The translations under genes were made by a program, and so were the position numbers. The notes below the pieces were generated by a model, which made no database searches, had not been told where the DNA came from, and saw only the letters and a program-made list of their open reading frames with translations. Of a stretch of DNA of 20,749 nt, positions 6,482 to 19,036 are shown one piece after another. Each line of letters opens with the position of its first letter. The stretch's first letter is position 1. This stretch comes from a virus, in the IMG/VR virus record IMGVR_UViG_3300048839_001415, positions 1-20,749 of that record; one strand, written 5' to 3'.

Positions 6482-6527
6482 CCGCCCTCGGCCGCTTTTT
6501 GAAAGCCGTCGTTCCTTTAGAGGGCGG
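6482..6527. terminator. Possible bidirectional terminator between convergent genes
   Basis: The DUF3489 gene (plus) and the cupin gene (minus) converge here. A 7-bp inverted repeat, CCGCCCT (6482-6488) and AGGGCGG (6521-6527), encloses a smaller GCTTT/AAAGC hairpin (6494-6506). The outer arms are far apart and there is no clean run of T after the stem, so terminator function is tentative. Confidence 0.3.
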
Positions 6528-6572
6528 CGTGAAGGCTACGTGCCTTTGTGAGGGACTGACAAAGCAAAGAAA

Positions 6573-6929
6573 TCAAATGACATCGCGCGCGGCTGCGGTA
6601 GCGGGATCCCCCGTGTTCGGCGTTCCCGTGGGTTCGATAAGCAGCAGATGTGCTTCCTTTCGTGCAATCGGTCGATGCTCCACGCCGGCTGGAACGATAA
6701 ACATCTCACCTTCTCGCAGGATGATCGTTCGTTCACGAAGCTCGATCTCGATCTCTCCCTTGAGAACAAGGAAAAAATCGTCCGTATTTGGATGCGAGTG
6801 CCATTTGAATTCACCCTCCACCTTCACGACCATCACGTCGTGACCGTTGAAGAGGGCGACGGTCTTTGGAGACCAGTGATCCGAAAACTCTGATAGCTTT
6901 TCGGAGAGGTTTATTGCCTCTGACATCAT
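6573..6929 (-). CDS. Small cupin-domain protein
   Basis: A 118-aa single-domain cupin beta-barrel. The first cupin motif is WHSHPNTDDFFLVLKG (43-58), with metal ligands His44 and His46 and Asp50 or Asp51 in place of the usual Glu. The second motif is EGEMFIVPAGVEHRP (73-87), with His85 as the last ligand. The substrate is unknown; such small cupins can be isomerases, dioxygenases or ligand-binding proteins. The start is one of two adjacent ATGs (6929 or 6926), with AAGGG 4 or 7 bases upstream. The gene is visibly less GC-rich than its neighbours and has its own ribosome-binding site, which suggests a recently acquired moron in the phage. Confidence 0.9.
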   Translation of the reverse strand: MMSEAINLSEKLSEFSDHWSPKTVALFNGHDVMVVKVEGEFKWHSHPNTDDFFLVLKGEIEIELRERTIILREGEMFIVPAGVEHRPIARKEAHLLLIEPTGTPNTGDPATAAARDVI

Positions 6930-6979
6930 GAGACCCTTTTGGTGATCCGCTTTCGTGGTACGCACTGTCCAAATGGTTT

Positions 6980-7198
6980 TCAAGCACGCACCCGGATCGC
7001 CTCGAACAGCCGCCTCAGGGCGAAGGACCGCACGATGCTCACCACCGTGAACACCGCCCCCATCTTCAGGTTCTGCGCGAGCGTCGTGTGCAGCCCGAAG
7101 ACCGGGAAGATCAGGATCTGCGTCACGACGGCGACGCCATACCCGACCGCCACGTTGGCGACGGCCTCGACCAGCGACATGGCCCGGCTCTGCTTCAT
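6980..7198 (-). CDS. DUF7220-like small membrane protein
   Basis: A 72-aa protein with a short polar N-terminus (KQSRAMSLVEAVANV) and two hydrophobic segments, roughly residues 17-36 and 46-60, separated by FGLHTTLAQNLKMG. The C-terminus is basic (RSFALRRLFEAIRVRA), suggesting two transmembrane helices with a cytoplasmic positive tail. I recall this pattern as DUF7220, frequent in alphaproteobacterial prophages and of unknown function. Its ATG overlaps by 4 bases (ATGA) the stop of the alternative frame across the methyltransferase gene, whereas the methyltransferase stop itself lies 9 bases upstream. Confidence 0.8.
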   Translation of the reverse strand: MKQSRAMSLVEAVANVAVGYGVAVVTQILIFPVFGLHTTLAQNLKMGAVFTVVSIVRSFALRRLFEAIRVRA

Positions 7199-8226
7199 GC
7201 CACCCCCTCATCCATCGGCCAGCAATTGAGCTGCGAGAGTTCGGAGCGCATGCGCTGCGACCAGCGGGACCACTCCGTTGCCGCAGAGCCGAAGCCTGTC
7301 CACCCGGTGGGCCAGCCCATCAGCGCCTCGACGAACAGCGGGTTCAAGGTCCGGGGCGTGTCGCAGGAATTCCCGCCAGCCATCGGCGTCGCCAGGACCT
7401 GGCGGCCAAGCAGCCCGTTCACCGGCGTGTTCGCGAGGCTCGTCGCCCCGTCCTTGTGATCCCGCGCCGTCGGCGTCATCCAGAGACGCGTCGCATCGCA
7501 GAGCGTCGTCCCGTCGTTGCGCGGGCGCGCCGTCTCGCTGCGATTGCTCGTCCGGTTTCGCGTGCCCTTGCTGTCGCCCGCCAGCGGCGTCGGCCAGAGC
7601 CGCAGCAGTTCCGTCCGGTTCCCGCCACTCGACCGGGTCCCAGAGCAGGCGCGCGGGGTCGGCCAGCTCGTCCCCCTCGCGGATTGCGAGGATGAAGAGC
7701 CGTTCGCGTTTGTGGGGCGCGCCGACTTCCGCCGCCGTGAAGAGGCCTGCCGCAAGGCGGTAGCCCATGCCGACCAGTCCTGCGGCGACCTCGGGGAAGC
7801 CGAGGCGGAGATGATGGGCGACATTCTCGAGGAAGACGAAGGGCGGCTCGACCTCGCCGATGATGCGGGCGACATGCGGCCAGAGGTGGCGCGGGTCGTC
7901 CGCGCCCCGGCGCTTGCCAGCCACCGAGAACGGCTGGCACGGATAGCCCGCAGTGACGATGTCCACCGCGCCGCGCCAAGGGCGGCCGTCGAAGGTGGCA
8001 ACATCGTCCCAGACAACAGCCTGATCCAGGGACGCGTCTTCCATCCGCGCCACGAGAGTGGCTGCGGCGAAGGTTTCCCGTTCGACATGGCCCACAGCAC
8101 GATATCCGGGGATGGCGATGGCGAGCCCGAGATCGAGCCCGCCTGCGCCGGAGCAGAGGGAGAGGCCGAAGAGGCATGCGTCTCCGGCTCCGGAAGCGCG
8201 TCCGGAGGAAGGTAGAGCCAGGTCAT
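7195..8226 (-). CDS. Alternative open frame overlapping the cytosine methyltransferase (possible dual coding)
   Basis: A 343-codon frame, shifted by one base from the methyltransferase, is open across almost its entire length. It begins at the second ATG of an ATGCATG motif whose first ATG starts the methyltransferase, and its stop overlaps the DUF7220 start by the ATGA arrangement common in this phage. The predicted protein starts MTWLYLPPDALPEPETH. It is Ser/Arg/Thr-rich in the middle and carries WPTP-type repeats (LWPTPLAGD, WMTPTARDHKDG). It ends with LNPLFVEALMGWPTGWTGF and a SRWSQRMRSEL tail. I recall similar products from other phage genomes next to cytosine methylases. It may still be a shadow of the real gene, because high GC keeps alternative frames open. 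Confidence 0.35.
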   Translation of the reverse strand: MTWLYLPPDALPEPETHASSASPSAPAQAGSISGSPSPSPDIVLWAMSNGKPSPQPLSWRGWKTRPWIRLLSGTMLPPSTAALGAARWTSSLRAIRASRSRWLASAGARTTRATSGRMSPASSARSSRPSSSSRMSPIISASASPRSPQDWSAWATALRQASSRRRKSARPTNANGSSSSQSARGTSWPTPRACSGTRSSGGNRTELLRLWPTPLAGDSKGTRNRTSNRSETARPRNDGTTLCDATRLWMTPTARDHKDGATSLANTPVNGLLGRQVLATPMAGGNSCDTPRTLNPLFVEALMGWPTGWTGFGSAATEWSRWSQRMRSELSQLNCWPMDEGVA

Positions 8227-10486: not shown

Positions 10487-10679
10487 TGGCGGCCTCCCGG
10501 TCATCCGTCCGTGGCCCATACAGCCTCTCGCCGAGTTGACGGACCAGCTCGCGCTCCGGCCACGTCAGGCGACGGTCGTCGACAGAGACGGCAAGCAGAC
10601 CCTCGTCATGCCAGCCATCGCGCTTCACCTGGTCGGGATCCCGACGCGTGCCGCCGTAGCCTTTCGGATACCACCTCAT
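10479..10679 (-). CDS. Hypothetical 66-aa protein in the resolvase operon
   Basis: The protein starts MRWYPKGYGGTRRDPDQVKR, is strongly basic in its first third, and ends with a helix (TWPERELVRQLGERLYG). No family is recognised. Its ATG overlaps the RuvC-like gene stop in a 4-base ATGA junction, and its stop overlaps the DUF6362 start by 8 bases, which argues for real translation in the same operon. A longer in-frame extension to 10877 was rejected because the added Arg/Gly-rich stretch is antisense-like shadow of the resolvase gene. Confidence 0.7.
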   Translation of the reverse strand: MRWYPKGYGGTRRDPDQVKRDGWHDEGLLAVSVDDRRLTWPERELVRQLGERLYGPRTDDREAANG

Positions 10680-11197
10680 GCCAGGCCTCCGTTCGTCTCG
10701 AGCGCCCAATGGAGGATCGCGATGGCGTCGGCCTCGTTGTCGTCGGCGGGTGAGAAGCCTCTGGCTCGGGCCGCGGCGATCATCGCCTCCTTCGGCGCGT
10801 TGCCCTTGCCGGTCGCGTGGCGTTTGATCGTGCCGACCGGAACGCCCTCGTAGGGAACGCCGCGCAGTTCGGCCCACGAGGTCAGGGTAGCCATCAGCCC
10901 GCCGTAGACGTGGGCCGCGTCGGTGCCGGCGTGCCGGCGGACCTCTTCGAACCAGATGGCGGCGATGGGCCCGGACAGTCGATCAAGTTCGGTCAGCCAG
11001 TTCGTGAAGCGGAGGTAGCGCATGCCGCCGCCGTCGAAGCGTCCGGGCCGGAAGCTGACCGTGCCGCTGGTGATCAGTCCGTCATGGCTGCGGAGCGCCC
11101 AGCCGGTCGTCGTGCCGAGATCAAGGGCGAGGATGCAGGACCGGGAGATAGCGCCCGTTTCGGGGCGGAGTTCCTGCGCGGGGATCGGTGTGTTCAT
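10676..11197 (-). CDS. RuvC-like Holliday-junction resolvase
   Basis: A 173-aa nuclease of the RuvC/RNase H fold. The first catalytic Asp is in CILALDLGTTTGWAL (Asp26), the Glu in IAAIWFEEV (about residue 85), and the final acidic pair in DNEADAIAIL near the C-terminus. The lysine-rich VGTIKRHATGKGNAPKEAM segment is typical of phage RuvC-like proteins. It is expected to resolve branched recombination or replication intermediates before packaging. It is the first gene of a leftward unit (resolvase, 66-aa gene, DUF6362) and lies directly beside the repeat field and the defence cassette. Only a weak GAG precedes the ATG. Confidence 0.88.
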   Translation of the reverse strand: MNTPIPAQELRPETGAISRSCILALDLGTTTGWALRSHDGLITSGTVSFRPGRFDGGGMRYLRFTNWLTELDRLSGPIAAIWFEEVRRHAGTDAAHVYGGLMATLTSWAELRGVPYEGVPVGTIKRHATGKGNAPKEAMIAAARARGFSPADDNEADAIAILHWALETNGGLA

Positions 11198-11325
11198 CGT
11201 GAAGGCTCACAAGCTGTGGGCCTTCGGCTTCGGTCACCGCAAGATGTAGCATTCGGCGGTCCTCGGCCAAAGCGAAAACGACCAGGGACGACCCGGCCAG
11301 CGACGATCGACGCGCTGCCCGTCCC

Positions 11326-11626
11326 GGTCCCAACCTCCGAACGCGTGGTCCCAACCTTCGAGGGGGTTGGGACAACCCTTTATTGTTTTACTCCAATGGC
11401 TTGAACGGATGTGGTCCCAACCTCGGTGTCCCCAACGGGGGTCCTTCTCTTTTCGTATAGAAAAACATGGTCCCGACCTTTTCCGTTCTCCCACATGAAT
11501 GTGTAGCAAAAGGTTGGGACCACAGGGCGAGGTTGGGGACACCATTGTTTTTGAACGACTTTTCGTGTCCCCAACCCCCTCTGGAGGTTGGGACAGGGTT
11601 GGGACCACCGGGGAGGTTGGGACACC
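11326..11626. repeat. Field of about twelve GGTTGGGAC/GTCCCAACC repeats in both orientations
   Basis: Copies of a 9-10-bp core are seen near 11326, 11347, 11413, 11427 and 11469 reading GTCCCAACC (some with an extra C or a C-to-G change). Others near 11365, 11511, 11531, 11585, 11597 and 11614 read GGTTGGGAC, and 11567 is inverted again. Two larger units look like imperfect copies of each other: 11365-11422 and 11531-11576. Each runs from GGTTGGGAC through an ATTGTTTT element and a TTGAACG element to GTCCCAACC, so each unit is also a potential stem-loop. Iteron-like or protein-binding roles are possible, but function is unknown. Confidence 0.8.
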
Positions 11627-11760
11627 GAGGGTTGACTTGAGCGAGGCGCGCTGCCGACTGCCTGCACAACCCTCAGCCAGCCGTGCAGCTCGAAGCTGCC
11701 GAGTGGGGTCACTCCCGGTTGCTCCCATCGGTAGCGGCAGATAGTACAATACGAATGCAA

Positions 11761-11783
11761 AAATTCCTGTTTATCGGGAATTT
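11761..11783. promoter_or_regulatory. Inverted repeat IR1, candidate AbiEi operator
   Basis: A 23-bp inverted repeat with arms AAATTCC (11761-11767) and GGAATTT (11777-11783) around a 9-base centre; the arms extend one more pair outward to 11760 and 11784. It shares AAATTC and GAATTT ends, and total length, with IR2 located 57 bp downstream. AbiEi antitoxins are known to repress their own operon by binding two inverted repeats in the promoter, so this is a strong candidate site. Confidence 0.7.
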
Positions 11784-11809
11784 TCGCGCTTATGGACCAT
11801 GTGTATGCT
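11781..11809 (+). promoter_or_regulatory. Possible abiE promoter between the two inverted repeats
   Basis: TTTTCG (11781-11786) and TATGCT (11804-11809) are spaced by 17 bases and could form -35 and -10 elements. IR1 would then overlap the -35 and IR2 the start region, a sensible arrangement for repression. Both hexamers are poor matches, and a TACAAT at 11745-11750 upstream of IR1 is an alternative -10. Confidence 0.3.
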
Positions 11810-11817
11810 ATTCGTAT

Positions 11818-11840
11818 AAATTCGCTTCATCCGCGAATTT
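11818..11840. promoter_or_regulatory. Inverted repeat IR2, candidate AbiEi operator
   Basis: A second 23-bp inverted repeat with perfect 8-bp arms, AAATTCGC (11818-11825) and GCGAATTT (11833-11840), around a 7-base centre. It ends 8 bases before the upstream ATG option of abiEi (11849) and 17 bases before the preferred one (11858). Centre-to-centre distance to IR1 is 57 bp, about 5.5 helical turns. The pair fits the two-site operator described for AbiE systems. Confidence 0.72.
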
Positions 11841-11857
11841 GTGCCAACATGATATAT

Positions 11858-12664
11858 ATGACTAAGGCATCGCACATCCCCGCTGGCCGAGCCAAACTTG
11901 CTGCCGTCCTGAAGTCGGCAGGCGATGTCGTGCTAATCGACGACGTCGTGCAGGCGCTTGGGACTGATCGAACACGCGCCGCCAAACTGCTCTCGCGCTG
12001 GACGTCGCAGGGCTGGATGCGCCGCATCGGGCCGGGCGCTTATGTGCCGGTGCAACTCGACCTGCTGGACTCGGCGCAGGTGGTCGAAGACCCGTGGATA
12101 CTTGTCCCGACGCTGTTCGCCCCCGGCTATATCGGCGGCCGGACGGCGGCAGAACACTGGGACCTGACCGAGCAACTCTTTCGGGACATCCTCGTCTTCA
12201 CAGCCGATCCTGTGCGCGCTCGCACTGTAGAGCGGCAGGGCGCGATCTTCACGCTCAAGCATATCCGGCAGGAACTGCTGTTCGGGGCGAAAACAGTCTG
12301 GCGCGCCCATACCCGTGTTCTCGTCTCGGACATTCATCGGACGATCATCGATATGCTCGACGATCCAGCCACTGGCGGCGGCATTCAGCACGTTGATGAC
12401 TGTTTTCGCCAGTATCTGGCGCGTTCCGACGCTGATCCCGCGCGGCTGATCGCCTATGCTGATCAGCATGGCAACGGCGCGATCTTCAAGCGGCTCGGAT
12501 TTTTGGCCGAGCGTCATGGTGCCGATAAGCTCGCCCGCGAGGCAGGCGGCCGGCTGACCGCTGGTAACGCCAAACTCGATCCTGACCTCGACTGCAGACG
12601 GCTTGTGTCGCGGTGGCGTCTGTTCGTTCCGGCTTCCTGGAAACCGGAGGCGGCTAATGATTGA
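11858..12664 (+). CDS. abiEi: AbiEi-family antitoxin / transcriptional regulator
   Basis: A 268-aa protein (from ATG 11858; 11849 and 11792 are alternative in-frame ATGs, the last overlapping the operator region). The N-terminal winged helix-turn-helix (about 10-65) includes VVLIDDVVQALGTDRTRAAKLLSRW followed by GWMRRIGPGAYVPV, the standard AbiEi pattern. The C-terminal domain carries PGYIGGRTAAEHWDLTEQ, then FTLKHIRQELLFG and VLVSDIHRTIIDMLDDP, typical of the AbiEi antitoxin C-terminal domain. In type IV systems AbiEi neutralises AbiEii without stable binding and represses the operon. It overlaps the toxin start by 8 bases, indicating translational coupling. The gene is less GC-rich than the phage core and on the opposite strand. 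Confidence 0.9.
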   Translation: MTKASHIPAGRAKLAAVLKSAGDVVLIDDVVQALGTDRTRAAKLLSRWTSQGWMRRIGPGAYVPVQLDLLDSAQVVEDPWILVPTLFAPGYIGGRTAAEHWDLTEQLFRDILVFTADPVRARTVERQGAIFTLKHIRQELLFGAKTVWRAHTRVLVSDIHRTIIDMLDDPATGGGIQHVDDCFRQYLARSDADPARLIAYADQHGNGAIFKRLGFLAERHGADKLAREAGGRLTAGNAKLDPDLDCRRLVSRWRLFVPASWKPEAAND

Positions 12665-14099
12665 TCGCCGCGAAATCCTCGATGCCGCCTCACGCTTCAG
12701 CCTTAACCCTCACGTCGTCGAAAAGGACTATGCCCTCGGCTGGGCGCTTGCCGGGATCTATGCGCATCCCGAACTTGCGTCGTCATGGGTGTTCAAGGGC
12801 GGCACGTGCCTGAAGAAATGCTACTTCGAAACCTACCGGTTCTCCGAAGACCTAGACTTTACTCTCAGAGACGTAGCCCACATCGACGAAGCCTTCCTGC
12901 GCCGTGTCTTCGGCGAAATCTCCGAATGGATTTATGAGCAGAGCGGCCTCACATTCCCCGCCGACCAGCAACGGTTCGAAATCCTCACCAACCCGCGCGG
13001 CAATCCGAGTTGCCAGGGCCGTCTGAGCTATCGCGGACCGGTTTCGCCCACTTCGGGCGGCCTGCCGCGCATCAAACTCGATCTCACCGCCGACGAGCGG
13101 CTGGTGCTCGATCCGGTATCAGTGCCCATTTTCCATCCGTACAGCGATGCGCCCGATGGCGGCATCACAGTGCTGTCCTACGCCTACGAGGAAGCATTCG
13201 GGGAAAAAGTCAGGGCGCTGGCCGAGCGGACGCGGCCACGCGACCTCTATGACGTCGTCAACCTTTTCCGCAACGAAGATGCGCGGCCTGAGCCGGGCGT
13301 TCTGCTCGACGTGCTGCGCCAGAAATGTGAATTCAAGGGCATCCCGGTTCCCCGCGACGGCGACTTCGACGATCACCGGCGCGATCTTGAAGCTGCATGG
13401 CAGGGAATGCTCGCCCATCAGCTCCCGGCGTTGCCGCCGGTCGATGCCTTTTGGAACGCTTTGCCGGAATTTTTCCGCTGGCTCGCCACCGGCGAAGCGC
13501 CGGCGCGGCCTGCGGCCTACGCGCTTGGCGGCGGCGAGACTGTCCTGCGCCAGCGTAGCCTTCCCGTCGGTATCCGGCAGAGCGCAGGTGCCGCTCTCGA
13601 AGTCATCCGCTTCGCTGCCGCCAACAGGCTTTGCGTCGATCTTGTCTATCAGGGGCGGACCCGCCGCATCGAGCCCTATTCGCTCCGGAGGACGCAAGAC
13701 GGCAATATCATCCTTCACGCCTGGAGCCGTGAAGCTAACGAACACCGCAGCTATCGTGTCGATCGCATCGAAGGTGCCCATACCACTAGCGAGACGTTCA
13801 CGCCCCGCTACGCTATCGAACTTACGCCGAGCGGCCCGATGACCATTCCGCCGACGGAACGGTCTCCGGGCCCGCGCACTTCGATTGGGGGCTTCAGCTC
13901 CCGCCCGACACGCCCTTCAAAGCCGCGATCCACATCACGAGGCTTTGGATCGAGCGGATCTACTTACGTCTATCAATGTCTTGTTTGCTCGAAGAAATTC
14001 AGCCGCAAGACCATGTCCGGAGCGCTGAACCCGCACAAGGCGCCGGAGGGCTACCCGTGCATGGGGCGCATGGGATACCTCGTCGATACGAAGTATTGA
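12657..14099 (+). CDS. abiEii: AbiEii-family nucleotidyltransferase toxin with WYL-like and zinc-finger C-terminus
   Basis: A 480-aa protein. Residues 1-225 are an AbiEii/DUF1814 nucleotidyltransferase: WVFKGGTCLKKC (44-55), SEDLDF (63-68) with metal-binding Asp65 and Asp67, PRIKLDLT with Asp142, and GEKVRALAERTRPRDLYD (182-199). AbiEii toxins use GTP or another NTP and cause reversible growth arrest; some relatives modify tRNA. Residues about 305-390 (ALEVIRFAAANRLCVDLVYQG, IEPYSL, HAWSREANEHRSYRVDRI) look like a WYL-type ligand-sensing domain. A Ser/Arg/Pro linker (395-435) leads to a C441-x2-C444...H460-x7-C468 finger and a GYLVDTKY end. Start: GGAGG 6 bases before ATG 12657. Classical AbiEii is shorter, near 300 aa, so the C-terminus is an added module. 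Confidence 0.9.
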   Translation: MIDRREILDAASRFSLNPHVVEKDYALGWALAGIYAHPELASSWVFKGGTCLKKCYFETYRFSEDLDFTLRDVAHIDEAFLRRVFGEISEWIYEQSGLTFPADQQRFEILTNPRGNPSCQGRLSYRGPVSPTSGGLPRIKLDLTADERLVLDPVSVPIFHPYSDAPDGGITVLSYAYEEAFGEKVRALAERTRPRDLYDVVNLFRNEDARPEPGVLLDVLRQKCEFKGIPVPRDGDFDDHRRDLEAAWQGMLAHQLPALPPVDAFWNALPEFFRWLATGEAPARPAAYALGGGETVLRQRSLPVGIRQSAGAALEVIRFAAANRLCVDLVYQGRTRRIEPYSLRRTQDGNIILHAWSREANEHRSYRVDRIEGAHTTSETFTPRYAIELTPSGPMTIPPTERSPGPRTSIGGFSSRPTRPSKPRSTSRGFGSSGSTYVYQCLVCSKKFSRKTMSGALNPHKAPEGYPCMGRMGYLVDTKY

Positions 14100-14127
14100 G
14101 CTGAAGCATTCTCCAAGGAACCTGCCA

Positions 14128-15015
14128 TTGCCGCCGCTATCTGAAATCCTCGACCGTCCTGAAAAACCGGCTCTGTTCATCGGCAACGGGATCAATAGGC
14201 ATAACAATGATGCGCGCTCCAGTTGGGACGACCTGCTGCGCGGGCTCATGCGCGACTATGGCGTTGACTTCACCGATGACGAAATTCGCGAGATGTCCAA
14301 CACTGAACTGTTCGACATTCTCGATCTTGCGCGACCGGCCGAAGATCGCAGCAGTCTTCAGGCAAAATTCTGTGAGACGATGAAGGACTGGAGGCCTGCA
14401 CAGCATCATCAGTCAATCGTCGGCTGGGCGCAACGTCATCGCCGTCCGGTCATCACCGTCAACTTCGATGAGAATTTGTCGCTCGCTGTGAAGGCGCGAC
14501 GGCAATGGTTGGGCAAGCCGTCTACGGACTACTATCCGTGGAACTGCTATTTCTCGGATACGTCGATCTCTGATCCGAAGACGGAATTCGCGATCTGGCA
14601 CGCCCACGGCATGATGCACTACAAGCGTAGCATCCGCCTTGGTCTCACCCATTACATGGGCTCGGTTCAGCGCGCGCGGCAATGGGTGTACGGTGACCGG
14701 GGTCTTCGTGCGTCGGCCAAGAACGCCGAAGCCAATTGGCGCGGCGCAAATGGCTGGCTGGAAGTCCTGTTCTTCTGTCCGCTCGTGATCTTTGGGTTCA
14801 GTTTCAACAAGGACGAGAACTTTCTTCGCTGGCTTTTTCTCGAACGCGCGCGCCTCCACAAGATCATCCCTGCGTGGAAAACGCCGACCTGGTTTGTTGA
14901 TACGCCCAGAAACGGCAGTCTTCACCGCAAGCCCTTCTTCGAGGGGCTTCAGATGCAGTATGTTGTCGCTGAAAACTATCAGGATATCTACGAGCACCCG
15001 GCGTGGAACTCCTAG
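14128..15015 (+). CDS. SIR2-family (NAD-binding) protein, candidate defence effector
   Basis: A 295-aa protein in a SIR2-like Rossmann fold. The NAD-binding loop is ALFIGNGINRHN (15-26), followed by SSWDDLLRGL. TVNFDENL (110-117), with candidate catalytic Asn112, resembles the T-x-N-Y/F-D motif of bacterial SIR2 effectors. WHAHG (157-161) gives the conserved His160-Gly161, and CPLVIFGFSFNKDENFLRWL (217-236) is the distal nucleotide-binding strand. Bacterial SIR2 effectors in Thoeris, DSR and related systems degrade NAD+ when a phage is sensed. The gene has no other recognised domain. It starts at TTG with AAGGA 8 bases upstream; no suitable ATG exists before the conserved motif. It begins 28 bases after the AbiEii stop, on the same strand. 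Confidence 0.82.
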   Translation: MPPLSEILDRPEKPALFIGNGINRHNNDARSSWDDLLRGLMRDYGVDFTDDEIREMSNTELFDILDLARPAEDRSSLQAKFCETMKDWRPAQHHQSIVGWAQRHRRPVITVNFDENLSLAVKARRQWLGKPSTDYYPWNCYFSDTSISDPKTEFAIWHAHGMMHYKRSIRLGLTHYMGSVQRARQWVYGDRGLRASAKNAEANWRGANGWLEVLFFCPLVIFGFSFNKDENFLRWLFLERARLHKIIPAWKTPTWFVDTPRNGSLHRKPFFEGLQMQYVVAENYQDIYEHPAWNS

Positions 15016-15119
15016 TCTTGCGAAAGCGGGGCCGCCTGCTTTAGGCCGGGTTGAACCAGCGCGCGAACACCACTCTTCACGCAGCGCGATTAAGGGCCGT
15101 AAGTTACCCGAAGGCAGGC

Positions 15120-17708
15120 TTATCCTGAACCCCTTCGATACCTCCACTCCCGCGGCGCCTCGCGCCCGCCCTCGTCGCGACGCCGGTACCGCTCCCAGCC
15201 GTTCGCCTTGAGGTAAGCCGAGACGCGCATCTGGTCGCCGCGGGTCCAGCGTGCGGGTTCTAGCCCGATGGCCTCATCGAGTATCTCGCCGACAGACACG
15301 TCCCGCAGCGGCTCGGGACGCGGCACGCTCTCGGTGCGGGAATTGCCGTAGTCGGGGAAACCGTCCGAGACGGTCCGGATCTCGTGCGTCAGCCAGTGTT
15401 CGATCAGGTCGTCCCACGCGTCGGACTGGTAGCGGCGGTCCTGTTCCTCGCGGGCTTCCGCCAGCAGCGCCGGGTCGTCGATCCACCAGATCGCGCCGGC
15501 GCGGAAACGGTGAACGGCTTCGGCCCAGAGCTGGTCCCGGTCCCGGGCGAGTGCCGCGATGTCGATCGTCCCGCAGCGGAGCGGCCAGAAACGACGGTTG
15601 CCGGTCTCGTCGCGGAGGTAAGTGTCGGGGTTAACGGTGCCGGCGAACACGCACTGGCGCGGCACCTCGACGGTGTAGCGACCATAGGGCGGGCGGAAGC
15701 GGTCGGTGGTTCGGGTCAGGAACGCCTTGATGCGCGAGACCTCGGCGCGGCCGATGGCGTCGAGTTCGGCGATCTCCACGATCCAGACACCCTGCATGTG
15801 CAGTGCGGCGTCCTTCGAGCCGAGCTCGGGCAGCTCGTCGGTGAACCATTCCTCGCCCGCGAGCACCTTGATCGCGGTGGATTTGCGTGCGCCCTGCGGC
15901 CCCTCCAGGATCAGCATGTGGTCGGCTTTCACGCCGGGGCGGTAGATGCGGGCGACGGCCGAGATCAGCCAGAGCGCGCCGATGGTGTGATTGAACGCGG
16001 TGGGCTCGGCGCCGAGATACGTGCTGGTCCAGGTCTCGATCCGGGGCGTACCGTCCCATGTCAGGGTGTCGAGCCAGTCACGGACGGGATGGATGCGCAG
16101 TTCTCGGGCGACGGCACCGACGGCGCGGCTCACGACTACCGGCGCCACGTTGATGCCGCGCAGCTGCAGCCACTCGGCCGTGCGGATGTCGTCGGCGTCC
16201 TCCCACGGACGCGGGAGGGACGCGACGCTGTCCCATGGCAGCGGCTGGCGCACCACGATCTCCTGCCCGAACTCGTCGAAGGCGAGAACGCCCGCGAAGG
16301 CGGGATCGGAGGTCAGGGCGACGATAACGTTGGCCTCGTTACGCTCGGGCGCGCCGGCCAGATCGAGCCGCAGGCGTCTGAACCAGGCGGGCTTCGGGAT
16401 CGGCGCGTGCGGATCGCCGGTGGCGTTCACGCGGCGGCGAAGCTCGGCCAGCTGCTGGGTCAGGACCGACATGCCGATGCCGGTCGCGGACTTGATCCGC
16501 GCGATGACCTGCCGTTCGGGCAGAGGATCGAGCTTTGCCAGCGTGATGCGCCCGAGCAGCGTGGACAGGGCTTCGAACTCGGGCGGATTGGTCAGCGCCT
16601 CGGCCGCGGCGATCAGGGTGGCGGGGTCGTCGGTGGAGGCAACTATGGGCGTGGCCGTCTCTGGCTCAACTGGATCCCCGGTCTGCGGGTCGGCAGTGGT
16701 GTCTGCCGCGAGCGCGTAATCCTCCGCGCGCGCCCCGCGCAGCAGATCGTCGTTGAAGTCGTCGCCATGCAGCGGCGCGACGATTTCGTTCGGTATGTCG
16801 GCCCGGTTCAGGCGGTCCGACAACGTCGCGGCCGCCTGGCGACCTGTGTCCCCGGCATCGGCATAGATGGTGACGCGCCGGGTGCCCTCGGGCCACTGGA
16901 ACCGCGCCAGACCGTCGGCCGACAGCGCCGCGCAGACCGGTGTGCCGAAGAGGGCGTGGGCGGCAAGCGCGGTCTCGATCCCCTCGGCGATGCCGATGTG
17001 TCCGTTCTCCGGCATCGGAAACAGGCGCACCACGGCATCCTTCACGCTGCCGAGCATCTTCTTGCCCGGAGGTGCCTTGGCGCTGCCGTCGTCGAGCAGG
17101 AAGGTGCGGTGGATGCCCGGTGCGCGCTCCCCGTCCGGCAGCCGCAGGATCGCGATCAGGCCGGGCCAGCCGCGGCGGCTGTCGAAGTCCGGAAGATCGG
17201 GATGGAACAGCAGGTCGGGCGATCCGGGATCCGAGACCTCGCGGGCGCGCAGATAGGTCTCGCCAGGCGTACCCGCGAGCGGTACCGCCCCGCCGACCAG
17301 ACGCGCGATCTCGGCCGAGTGGTCGGGGCGTGCGCGCATGGGCGACTTCGGCGCAGGTTGCGGCGCAGGGTGATCCATCCTCGCGAGCCGCGCTGCCTCG
17401 TCGAAGAGCGCCCCGTCGCAGAGACCGGTCGCCTGCGCGATCAGGTCGATGGGACCGGCCCGCTCGCCGGTGGCGTAGTCGAAGCCCCAGCCGGCATAGG
17501 GCCCGTCGAGATGGATGGTGCAGGAACCCTCCTTGCGCGGTGGGCGCCCGGAGAGGTCTGCGCAGCGCAAGGATCGACGGTCCCGTGCGAGCCGGGCCTC
17601 GGGAAAGAGCCCCGGCAGCCAGTCGGCGGCCGTGCAGGCAAGCCGCTCCTTCACCGCCGTCAGATCGTGCCGGGTCTTCGGGACCGCGATGTCGTTGAGG
17701 TCGATCAT
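15120..17708 (-). CDS. Toprim-VapE (virulence-associated E) primase-helicase
   Basis: An 862-aa replication protein. Residues 20-110 are a primase-type N-terminal region without an obvious full zinc finger. A Toprim domain spans about 235-330, with EGIETALAAH (242-251) and YADAGDTGR (282-290) as acidic metal-binding motifs. The C-terminal half is a VapE/DUF5906 helicase: Walker A EGPQGARKST (602-611), Walker B VWIVEIAELD (641-650), and FAGTVNPDTYLRDETGNRRF (688-707) as sensor region. It probably primes and unwinds phage DNA at the origin. The start was set at ATG 17708, before MIDLNDIAVPKTRHDL; the 41 residues of a longer reading lie in the helicase gene. It lies 8 bases downstream of the helicase gene. 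Confidence 0.93.
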   Translation of the reverse strand: MIDLNDIAVPKTRHDLTAVKERLACTAADWLPGLFPEARLARDRRSLRCADLSGRPPRKEGSCTIHLDGPYAGWGFDYATGERAGPIDLIAQATGLCDGALFDEAARLARMDHPAPQPAPKSPMRARPDHSAEIARLVGGAVPLAGTPGETYLRAREVSDPGSPDLLFHPDLPDFDSRRGWPGLIAILRLPDGERAPGIHRTFLLDDGSAKAPPGKKMLGSVKDAVVRLFPMPENGHIGIAEGIETALAAHALFGTPVCAALSADGLARFQWPEGTRRVTIYADAGDTGRQAAATLSDRLNRADIPNEIVAPLHGDDFNDDLLRGARAEDYALAADTTADPQTGDPVEPETATPIVASTDDPATLIAAAEALTNPPEFEALSTLLGRITLAKLDPLPERQVIARIKSATGIGMSVLTQQLAELRRRVNATGDPHAPIPKPAWFRRLRLDLAGAPERNEANVIVALTSDPAFAGVLAFDEFGQEIVVRQPLPWDSVASLPRPWEDADDIRTAEWLQLRGINVAPVVVSRAVGAVARELRIHPVRDWLDTLTWDGTPRIETWTSTYLGAEPTAFNHTIGALWLISAVARIYRPGVKADHMLILEGPQGARKSTAIKVLAGEEWFTDELPELGSKDAALHMQGVWIVEIAELDAIGRAEVSRIKAFLTRTTDRFRPPYGRYTVEVPRQCVFAGTVNPDTYLRDETGNRRFWPLRCGTIDIAALARDRDQLWAEAVHRFRAGAIWWIDDPALLAEAREEQDRRYQSDAWDDLIEHWLTHEIRTVSDGFPDYGNSRTESVPRPEPLRDVSVGEILDEAIGLEPARWTRGDQMRVSAYLKANGWERYRRRDEGGREAPREWRYRRGSG

Positions 17709-17716
17709 CGCGCCCC

Positions 17717-19036
17717 TCAGGCCAGTAGGACGAGCCCGCGCTCGGCCCGGGTGATCGCGGTGTAGAGCCAGCGGCGCCGGTCGATCTCGCTGCGGCCCAG
17801 CCCGTCGTCCCAGACGACCACGTTCTCCCACTGCGACCCCTGTGCCTTGTGGGCGGTGATCGCCCAGCCGAAGGTCGCCTCCGTCAGCAGGCGCTTCTCC
17901 TTGTAGTCGCGGTCGTGGCGCTTGTCGTCGTAGGCGACATGGTCCTCGAAATGCCCCTTGTAGATGCGCAGCCGGCCCGGGCGCCCGTCCTCATAGGGCT
18001 CGCCGATGCGGCGGCCGTCCTCGTCATGGACGACGGCCGAGAAGTAGAGGCTGCCCTCGTCGACGATGTCCTCAAGCGTCACGAACATCCCGTTGATCAG
18101 CCCCAGATTGTTCTGGTTCTTCAGGCAGATGATCTTCTCGGCCGGTCCGGTGGGTAGCCAGTTCCCGCCGAGACCGGCCGCCGCGCGCATGGCGTTGTTG
18201 ATCTGCAGCCGCGTGGCGTTCAGCCCGCAGATCAGCTGACCGCCGCGCAGCGCCTGTTCCGGCGTGATGTCGCCCTTGCGGAGCTTGGCGACATGATCGT
18301 CGTAGACGCCGAAGCCGATGGGCCGGCCCTCGCGCGCCATGGTGGCGAGGCGGATGATCGCGCTCTCGGCCGCCTGGCGATGGATCTCGGTCAGCATCAC
18401 GTCCGGCTCGTCGCGGGTGAAGGCGCCTTCGCCGCGGATCGGCGGCAACTGGCCGGGATCGCCGAGCACGAGGATTGGCTTGCCGAAGCTCATCAGGTCG
18501 CGCGCCATCTCCTCGCCGACCATCGACACCTCGTCGAGCACGATGAGCCGGGCGTCCGCGGCGTCGCTCTGCGGATTCAGCGCGAAGCGCGGATGCTTCA
18601 TCGCCGAGAGCCCCTGGCGCATCGCCTCGATCGCGGCATCGGCCGTGGTGCGCGCAAACCCGGTCAGCCGGCGGGCGTCGCGTTCGGCGACCGCGATCTT
18701 GCGGGCAGCCTTTTCGATTTCCTCCTCGGTCGACTCGATCACCGAGTAGATCAGGCTGTGAATGGTGCGCGCCGGCGTTCCCTTGCGGGTCAGCACCAGC
18801 GCGGCCTTGCCTGTGAAGGTGGCGGTGACAACGCCGGGCACACAGCGGCCGTCCTTCGCGCTGCGGTGGGGCGAGAGGCCGAGTTCGTCGAGCGCGAACT
18901 TCAGCACGGTGCTCTTGCCGGACCCGGCATAGCCGAACAGGCGGAATACCTGCTGCTGCTCGGTCCGGGTCTCGAACCATTCCCTGATCTCGCGGATCGC
19001 GGCGGCCTGCGTGGCGGATGGGGTGAACTCGGTCAT
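17717..19036 (-). CDS. RecD-like superfamily 1 DNA helicase
   Basis: A 439-aa ATP-dependent helicase. It has a Q-like N-terminus (TEFTPSATQAAAIREI), Walker A LFGYAGSGKST (33-43), Walker B LIVLDEVSMVG near residue 165, and a LVLGDPGQLPPI motif III. TEIHRQ follows. The C-terminal UvrD_C_2-type region has FGWAITAHKAQGSQW and YTAITRAERGL. This is the RecD/TraA-like architecture of phage-encoded helicases, most likely acting in replication or recombination with the neighbouring VapE protein and Cas4-like nuclease. Its ATG overlaps the stop of the upstream gene in an ATGA junction; a much longer frame reaching 19477 is rejected as out-of-frame reading of that gene. Confidence 0.93.
   Translation of the reverse strand: MTEFTPSATQAAAIREIREWFETRTEQQQVFRLFGYAGSGKSTVLKFALDELGLSPHRSAKDGRCVPGVVTATFTGKAALVLTRKGTPARTIHSLIYSVIESTEEEIEKAARKIAVAERDARRLTGFARTTADAAIEAMRQGLSAMKHPRFALNPQSDAADARLIVLDEVSMVGEEMARDLMSFGKPILVLGDPGQLPPIRGEGAFTRDEPDVMLTEIHRQAAESAIIRLATMAREGRPIGFGVYDDHVAKLRKGDITPEQALRGGQLICGLNATRLQINNAMRAAAGLGGNWLPTGPAEKIICLKNQNNLGLINGMFVTLEDIVDEGSLYFSAVVHDEDGRRIGEPYEDGRPGRLRIYKGHFEDHVAYDDKRHDRDYKEKRLLTEATFGWAITAHKAQGSQWENVVVWDDGLGRSEIDRRRWLYTAITRAERGLVLLA

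Follow-up and report, generated by a model that had tools for sequence, protein, structure and literature searches.

Three kinds of described system bear on the locus reported here. According to the available part of Rousset et al. 2022 (PMC9122126), P2 and P4 prophages have hotspots in which loci of 1-5 kb, with high turnover and diverse anti-phage systems, lie between two conserved phage genes, and the hotspots of P2-like phages often hold more than one system. AbiE type IV toxin-antitoxin systems are bicistronic pairs of AbiEi and AbiEii (DUF1814), and motifs I-IV of AbiEii are defined in the accessible sections of PMC3985639. Sirtuin-fold effectors with a catalytic Asn and His occur in several defence systems, namely the ThsA SIR2 domain of Thoeris, KomC of Kongming, DSR1/DSR2, Avs5 and SIR2-HerA/Nezha. 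The DNA analysed here, the whole 20,749 bases of IMG/VR virus record IMGVR_UViG_3300048839_001415 (the window), carries three rightward genes, abiEi, abiEii and a SIR2-family gene, set between a leftward resolvase gene and a leftward primase-helicase gene (Table 1; L numbers denote the loci and contigs compared with the window). We consider it likely that the three genes occupy a defence-gene hotspot of a Rhodobacterales prophage family, in which AbiE and SIR2 are two separate modules lying side by side.

Relatives of the phage were collected by a primase search of viral contigs (query 15120-17744), and the best 80 of 218 matches were used, 25 of them listed at an identity of at least 94%. DNA similarity to many of these relatives ends at 11623-11628 and restarts at 15116-15136. 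The spacing between primase and resolvase genes was resolved in 66 of the 80 (the remaining 14 were unresolved), and measured 428-881 bp in 34 and 1,587-6,797 bp in 32. With 32 of 66 resolved relatives occupied and with common borders, the interval between these two conserved phage genes is a site of varying cargo; comparing the same phage position across relatives, as an earlier sequence-only reading of this DNA had proposed, thus revealed a cargo hotspot. A region of GGTTGGGAC repeats was present in 28 of the resolved relatives, 26 of which were occupied (6 of 38 were occupied without the repeats), L108 and L145 being the two with repeats and no large insert. These repeats, which lie between resolvase and cargo, might act as an origin of replication or in recombination. 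Cargo was carried by 37 contigs (32 resolved and 5 in which it runs to the contig end), and its longest frame opposes the primase in 29. Within a sample of 394 genomes from the family of Defluviimonas (placed by NCBI taxonomy under Albidovulum, Paracoccaceae, Rhodobacterales), 13 matched the primase with an E-value of 1e-200 or below; the gap was resolved in 12 of these and occupied in 10, mostly with cargo seen in viral contigs, the two cargo sets overlapping in that the cargo of L176 is that of L150 and the cargo of L178 that of L099.

PADLOC was run on 40 of 53 cargo cluster representatives (clusters of at least 120 aa), and labels were spread within blastp clusters. Clear matches to recognised defence systems were obtained in 17 of the 37 cargo contigs (Table 1; L111 and L112 look near-duplicate), and on this raw count, which has no background rate beside it, the cargo is rich in anti-phage systems. 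Partial PADLOC matches in L092, L101, L110, L115 and L119 were not counted, and the other 20 contigs held genes without a clear defence label or with partial matches only. Thymine-hypermodification genes were identified in L115 and L119 with Pfam, and the hotspot of L115, L119 and, by similarity, L177 holds alpha-glutamyl/putrescinyl thymine pyrophosphorylase and thymidylate synthase genes, which make up a DNA hypermodification cargo. Large cargo proteins without a clear PADLOC label were found at L099:11734-15792 (1352 aa), L116:11658-15254 (1198 aa), L091:11695-13413 (572 aa) and L086:11692-13707 (671 aa; a weak 22.5-bit PADLOC match and a GHKL-type ATPase domain), and these four are candidate new defence genes. 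Hidden Markov models (HMMs) for AbiEi, AbiEii and this SIR2, all of which match their known loci, gave no match in L083-L185, and among the loci examined AbiE with SIR2 occupies the hotspot in the window only. The sequence-only view of the genes as prophage-borne defence cargo is well supported by the shared insert borders, the occupied site in relatives and the defence systems found there.

That view had also joined the three genes into one coupled superinfection-exclusion locus, a claim that comparison with other loci does not support. The SIR2 family set comprised 57 genome loci, 4 viral contigs and 5 plasmid or phage-collection records, that is 66 loci in addition to the window, of which 64 were examined with at least 2 kb of upstream sequence; a phage-collection match at 27% identity (H2) lies outside this set. 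No complete AbiE pair adjoined SIR2 at any of the 66 loci in searches with tblastn and with HMMs from the window's AbiE subfamily, and SIR2 thus rarely adjoins AbiEii in homologous loci, the nearest cases being an AbiEii tail remnant in L007 and the plasmid L002, on which SIR2 and a different AbiEii are about 5 kb apart. A general Pfam AbiEii search covering the carrier records of 65 of the 66 loci found AbiEii in 27 (15/32 and 12/33), and none of the 44 AbiEii stretches fetched from carrier records other than L002 lay within the SIR2 flanks examined (usually 8 kb a side). Conversely, SIR2 of this family was present at none of 12 AbiE loci, which were nine plasmid or genome loci (L068-L071 and L078-L082, with just 212 bases downstream examined at L081) and three viral contigs (L186-L188); the viral contigs were obtained with an alignment, a scan with a single AbiEii sequence having given nothing. 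A possible co-occurrence in L071, where AbiEii has a "SIR2 family protein" at a distance of 1.4 kb, was rejected: that protein is encoded on the opposite strand beside nif genes and is unmatched by the HMM of this SIR2 family.

Related phages carry SIR2 independently. L064 and L067, which share the head genes of the window phage at about 77-82% DNA identity, have SIR2 without AbiE at another site, on the strand opposite to a phrog_6367 gene. In L065, which was left out as a close relative because it has just short stretches in common with the window, SIR2 is again alone, flanked by a ParB-methyltransferase gene and a connector gene; in L066 it comes after a portal gene (phrog_68). By eye, L066:10496-11557, about 1.6 kb downstream of SIR2, shows another SIR2-like N-terminus (IIGAGAS), and at L067:5099-8486 an insertion whose frames resemble IS66 by eye splits the SIR2 gene. 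AbiEii was found in 0 of 398 genomes of a phylum sample and 5 of 385 of a class sample; SIR2 was found in 1 of the 385 and in 1 of 101, each time in the centre genome chosen for having it, and is too rare for statistics. No publication on this AbiE-SIR2 pair or this hotspot was found among the open-licence PMC literature matches listed.

The closest SIR2 protein (97.6% identical) is encoded on a Defluviimonas chromosome (L007), in a block shared with the window that begins within the AbiEii tail (Table 1). At L007:7826-7969, 35 codons of a methyltransferase-like start are fused to the last 17 codons of AbiEii; the 35-codon stretch matches, weakly and over a short length (E 0.001-0.006), the starts of site-specific DNA methyltransferases on Yoonia, Phaeobacter and Nitrosomonas plasmids. 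A deletion within a degraded defence island is the probable origin of this fusion. Searching the L007 genome for AbiEii gave no match, and its SIR2 gene differs from that of the window by 16 synonymous and 6 non-synonymous single-change codons (ratio of non-synonymous to synonymous rates, dN/dS, 0.10; one two-change codon was left out). On the simplest reading of these sequences, AbiEii and SIR2 were once neighbours in this lineage, AbiE was deleted and SIR2 stayed intact. The evidence of L007 points in two directions: it shows a genuine, shared junction, and also a SIR2 gene that is retained without AbiE. The possibility that the AbiEii C-terminal tail belongs to a SIR2 cassette, since L007 shares just that part, was ruled out, as full-length homologues have the tail.

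Table 1. Features of the window, with the PADLOC systems found at the same site in related contigs
Feature	Position or contig	Strand	Basis
Variable cargo block (hotspot insert), ~3.5 kb	11625..15115		DNA similarity to many related phages breaks at its edges
abiEi, predicted antitoxin / autorepressor	11849..12664	+	PDLC02271 E 5.7e-123; frame open from 11792, with an inferred start at 11849 or 11858
abiEii, predicted nucleotidyltransferase toxin with WYL domain and Cys-containing C-terminal tail	12657..14099	+	PDLC02317 E 1.2e-204, Pfam AbiEii and WYL, motifs I-IV
SIR2-fold protein (predicted), 295 aa, TTG start	14128..15015	+	structure model, fold search, 52-row family alignment
RuvC-like Holliday junction resolvase, phage gene, left border	10676..11197	-	phrog_159 E 3.5e-31
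Right border: phage primase-helicase with Toprim and VapE-like domains	15120..17831	-	domain and phage-family matches
Block in common with Defluviimonas chromosome L007: AbiEii tail and SIR2	14047..15092	+	96.6% DNA identity
Phage non-coding region, many GGTTGGGAC repeats in both orientations, edging cargo	11237..11624		repeat search; present in 28 of 66 resolved relatives
25-bp inverted repeat, candidate AbiEi operator 1	11760..11784		inverted-repeat search
23-bp inverted repeat, candidate AbiEi operator 2	11818..11840		inverted-repeat search; similar repeats in L068, L081
IetAS	L085, L098 (part), L100, L111, L112, L162		PADLOC
Rmr	L090, L106, L109, L118		PADLOC
CBASS with phospholipase	L094, L113, L114		PADLOC
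Lamassu	L088 (part), L150		PADLOC
Dsr1	L093		PADLOC
PD-Lambda-2	L105		PADLOC

The description of the genes as a rightward unit in a leftward phage operon, less rich in GC than the phage, agrees with the strands and spacing (abiEi and abiEii overlap by 8 bases, and 28 bases separate abiEii from SIR2) and with a GC content, in 500-base steps, of 0.56-0.65 in the cargo block vs 0.67-0.73 in most other steps. The GGTTGGGAC repeat region left of the cargo is also GC-poor (0.60-0.62). A second GC-poor stretch lies near 6.5-7 kb (0.53 in 6501-7000), where 6501-7211 encodes a cupin-domain protein and is possibly a further cargo site.

The SIR2 protein scores 19.5 bits with Pfam SIR2_2, under the cut-off of 24.5, and the sirtuin fold was assigned from a structure model and a fold search. 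The model, built from 52 sequences, has a mean predicted local distance difference test score of 89.5. Its top Foldseek matches are KomC/HAM-SIR2, human FAM118B and DSR2, and its best solved-structure matches ThsA, KomC, DSR2 and SPARSA, at about 10-17% identity to the matched chains; VIA-align gave Z 20.0 for ThsA (3.0 Å over 237 residues) and Z 19.3 for KomC (3.2 Å over 246). The protein is accordingly modelled as a single-domain sirtuin fold, predicted to be closest to ThsA, KomC and FAM118B. FAM118B, a filament-forming sirtuin of vertebrates, is also the only sirtuin among the PDB chain sequences matched by the SIR2-family profile (E 0.0022; the other matches look like chance) and ranks fifth in Foldseek (VIA Z 15.3); it is very distant from the window protein. 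Human FAM118B is very weakly active alone and far better with FAM118A, as stated in the available portion of PMC12700824.

Catalytic residues were read from a family alignment (A3) of 52 rows, from which all of L001-L006 and 10 of the 61 loci L007-L067 were left out (L020, L023, L047, L048, L056, L057, L059, L061, L062 and L067; fused, duplicate, truncated, broken or partial). Asn112 is present in 52 of 52 members, and position 158 is His in 40 (the window included), Tyr in 10 and Phe in 2; both positions were assigned through a sequence motif rather than by residue-level structural superposition. The record titles of the 12 members with Tyr or Phe point to Bacteroidota, where we take their genera to belong, except L050, a metagenome-assembled genome titled Mollicutes. 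In Vibrio cholerae SIR2-HerA, a change of either matching residue abolishes immunity (available text of PMC11559045). On its model, the window protein is thus predicted to share both fold and catalytic pair with defence sirtuins that cleave NAD+, which answers the concern that it might lack an NAD-binding fold, and it may cleave or deplete NAD+.

Members of the family occur in proteobacterial and Bacteroidota genomes; E. coli genomes searched for the gene gave no match. A viral-contig scan with a single SIR2 sequence found nothing, and a three-sequence alignment gave matches. PADLOC assigned the window SIR2 to no family at E 0.001 (PDC-S25 was weak at E 0.0079), and at most 3 of the 52 members match anything in PADLOC-DB of 2023 at that threshold. 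Clustering of frames at most 4 kb from SIR2 gave no clear conserved partner, clusters of at least three loci being mostly syntenic close relatives, with some mixed clusters.

The AbiE pair looks intact from its sequence. AbiEi and AbiEii each match their PADLOC model, and with their overlapping frames they form the bicistronic pair of a type IV system. AbiEii scores 129 bits with Pfam AbiEii and 33 bits with WYL; AbiEi stays under the Pfam cut-offs (AbiEi_4 22.1 bits, AbiEi_1 15.2 bits), and an NCBIfam scan of AbiEi, AbiEii and SIR2 proteins matched none of the three. All of the nucleotidyltransferase (NTase) motifs I-IV are present in AbiEii (KGG-x15-DLD at residue 47, KVRALAER at 184, RDLYD at 195), with two departures: Lys rather than a hydrophobic residue precedes GG, and motif III fits the KLxAaxxR form loosely. 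The overlapping pair, these motifs, the PADLOC matches and the presence upstream of inverted repeats that are candidate operators liken the locus to AbiE type IV systems; the window AbiEii differs from them in carrying a WYL domain in addition and a tail that contains Cys, which four full-length plasmid homologues have as well, and is followed, only in the window among loci examined, by this SIR2 gene. The tail is native, being found in full-length homologues that include those four.

A control region of its own, which had been proposed for the unit, is plausible: two inverted repeats lie 5' of abiEi. A sigma-70 consensus promoter scan of 11200-15250 found none. The abiEi start is likely ATG 11849 or 11858, because a longer start would place an operator-like repeat within the gene. 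Two or more comparable inverted repeats arose in 6 of 2000 dinucleotide shuffles of 11625-11860. The AbiEi of S. agalactiae binds two 23-bp inverted repeats 3 bp apart (accessible part of PMC7319586), vs a spacing of 33 bp between the candidate operators of the window. Among nine other AbiE loci the repeats are closely similar in L068 and related in L081, and the other seven had no inverted repeat with arms of at least 7 in the stretch examined.

Compared with the defence SIR2 effectors named above, the window protein is like them in its modelled sirtuin fold and catalytic Asn and His; it is unlike them in being a single 295-aa domain, with no KomA/KomB, HerA, TIR or pAgo gene identified beside it. 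For Kongming (KomABC), neither KomA nor KomB was identified beside SIR2, the three genes filling the cargo at 11625-15115 (antisense frames were outside the scan, and a partner may lie elsewhere in the host). For Nezha/SIR2-HerA, no HerA gene was identified in the cargo, which is filled by abiEi, abiEii and SIR2; for Thoeris, no SLOG or macro domain follows SIR2, as the protein ends with the SIR2 fold, and no TIR ThsB was identified in the cargo. The site itself resembles the P2/P4 hotspots in holding small variable loci with diverse defence systems between two conserved phage genes, and differs in belonging to another phage family, in Rhodobacterales, and in the position of its primase-resolvase site next to the GGTTGGGAC repeat region. 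Two modules sharing one hotspot would be ordinary, because P2-like hotspots often hold more than one system (PMC9122126, as far as available).

Other readings of the arrangement were weighed against two separate modules. A coupled system, as in the sequence-only reading, in which AbiEi would control and restrain both an NTase toxin and an NADase and infection would release the two jointly, is favoured by the co-directional tight packing with its 28-base gap, the single candidate control region and the junction persisting as a remnant in L007; we find this coupling unlikely, given that none of the 66 other SIR2 loci has a complete AbiE pair and none of the 12 AbiE loci has SIR2 although 27 of 65 carrier records have AbiEii, that L007 keeps SIR2 intact without AbiE at a dN/dS of 0.10 vs the window, and that SIR2 is alone in L064, L065 and L067. 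Equally doubtful is the proposal that in this lineage chance neighbours became one unit, SIR2 being transcribed only from the AbiEi-repressed promoter so that loss of AbiEi in infection would free NTase toxin and NADase together, with SIR2 itself an uncatalogued, partner-free single-gene defence family and bacterial kin of vertebrate FAM118. That AbiE acts chiefly in addiction, keeping the prophage stable, and that SIR2 is a passenger of little effect, seems marginally less probable again: stabilisation of plasmids and other mobile elements by AbiE has been reported (available text of PMC3985639) and related phages are present as prophages in sampled genomes, whereas SIR2 retains Asn112 and His158, its differences from L007 are mostly at silent sites, and many defence systems sit at the same site in relatives. 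That the AbiEii-SIR2 junction is an assembly chimera is very hard to credit; the sequence is that of an IMG/VR virus contig, and no other example of the complete combination turned up in the searches made, yet the same junction (last 17 AbiEii codons, gap, SIR2) recurs in a separate Defluviimonas assembly within a block of 96.6% identity, and both outer borders coincide with those of relatives.

Several observations weigh against two independent defence modules in a hotspot, which we nevertheless prefer. The tight packing and shared direction of abiEii and SIR2 also fit an operon of shared function, and since L007 retains their junction the two genes have been adjacent in at least two contexts. 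The SIR2 relatives were gathered by two short peptide patterns, which makes the sample not exhaustive. Not all members of the family may be NADases, because the catalytic His is replaced by Tyr or Phe in 12 of 52, with which the chemistry may differ. The operator reading of the inverted repeats is weak, because repeats of the window type occur in just one or two of nine other AbiE loci. Some of the hotspot cargo does not resemble defence genes (the short-chain dehydrogenase of L089, the Glyoxalase_8 domain of L135, and also the transposase of L114), and evidence on module activity consists of sequence and predicted structure.

Under the preferred reading of separate modules, and by analogy with the named families, AbiEi would repress its own promoter through the inverted repeats and neutralise AbiEii, an NTase toxin that would halt growth once freed. 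The stand-alone SIR2 would most likely cut NAD+ upon sensing infection, and growth would stop. SIR2 is probably on the AbiE transcript through its position and not through partnership. The block, opposed to the phage genes, would be driven by its own promoter and could therefore be expressed in the lysogen when the lytic genes are silent; there it would shield host and prophage against other phages.

The proposed three-gene system thus resolves, on this likely reading, into two known kinds of module, and a false new system is avoided. Since no conserved partner came to light for the SIR2 family and PADLOC-DB of 2023 hardly detects it, the family offers a testable candidate for NADase defence by a single gene. 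The hotspot can be mined further, as the site at which a Rhodobacterales prophage family would exchange short cassettes.

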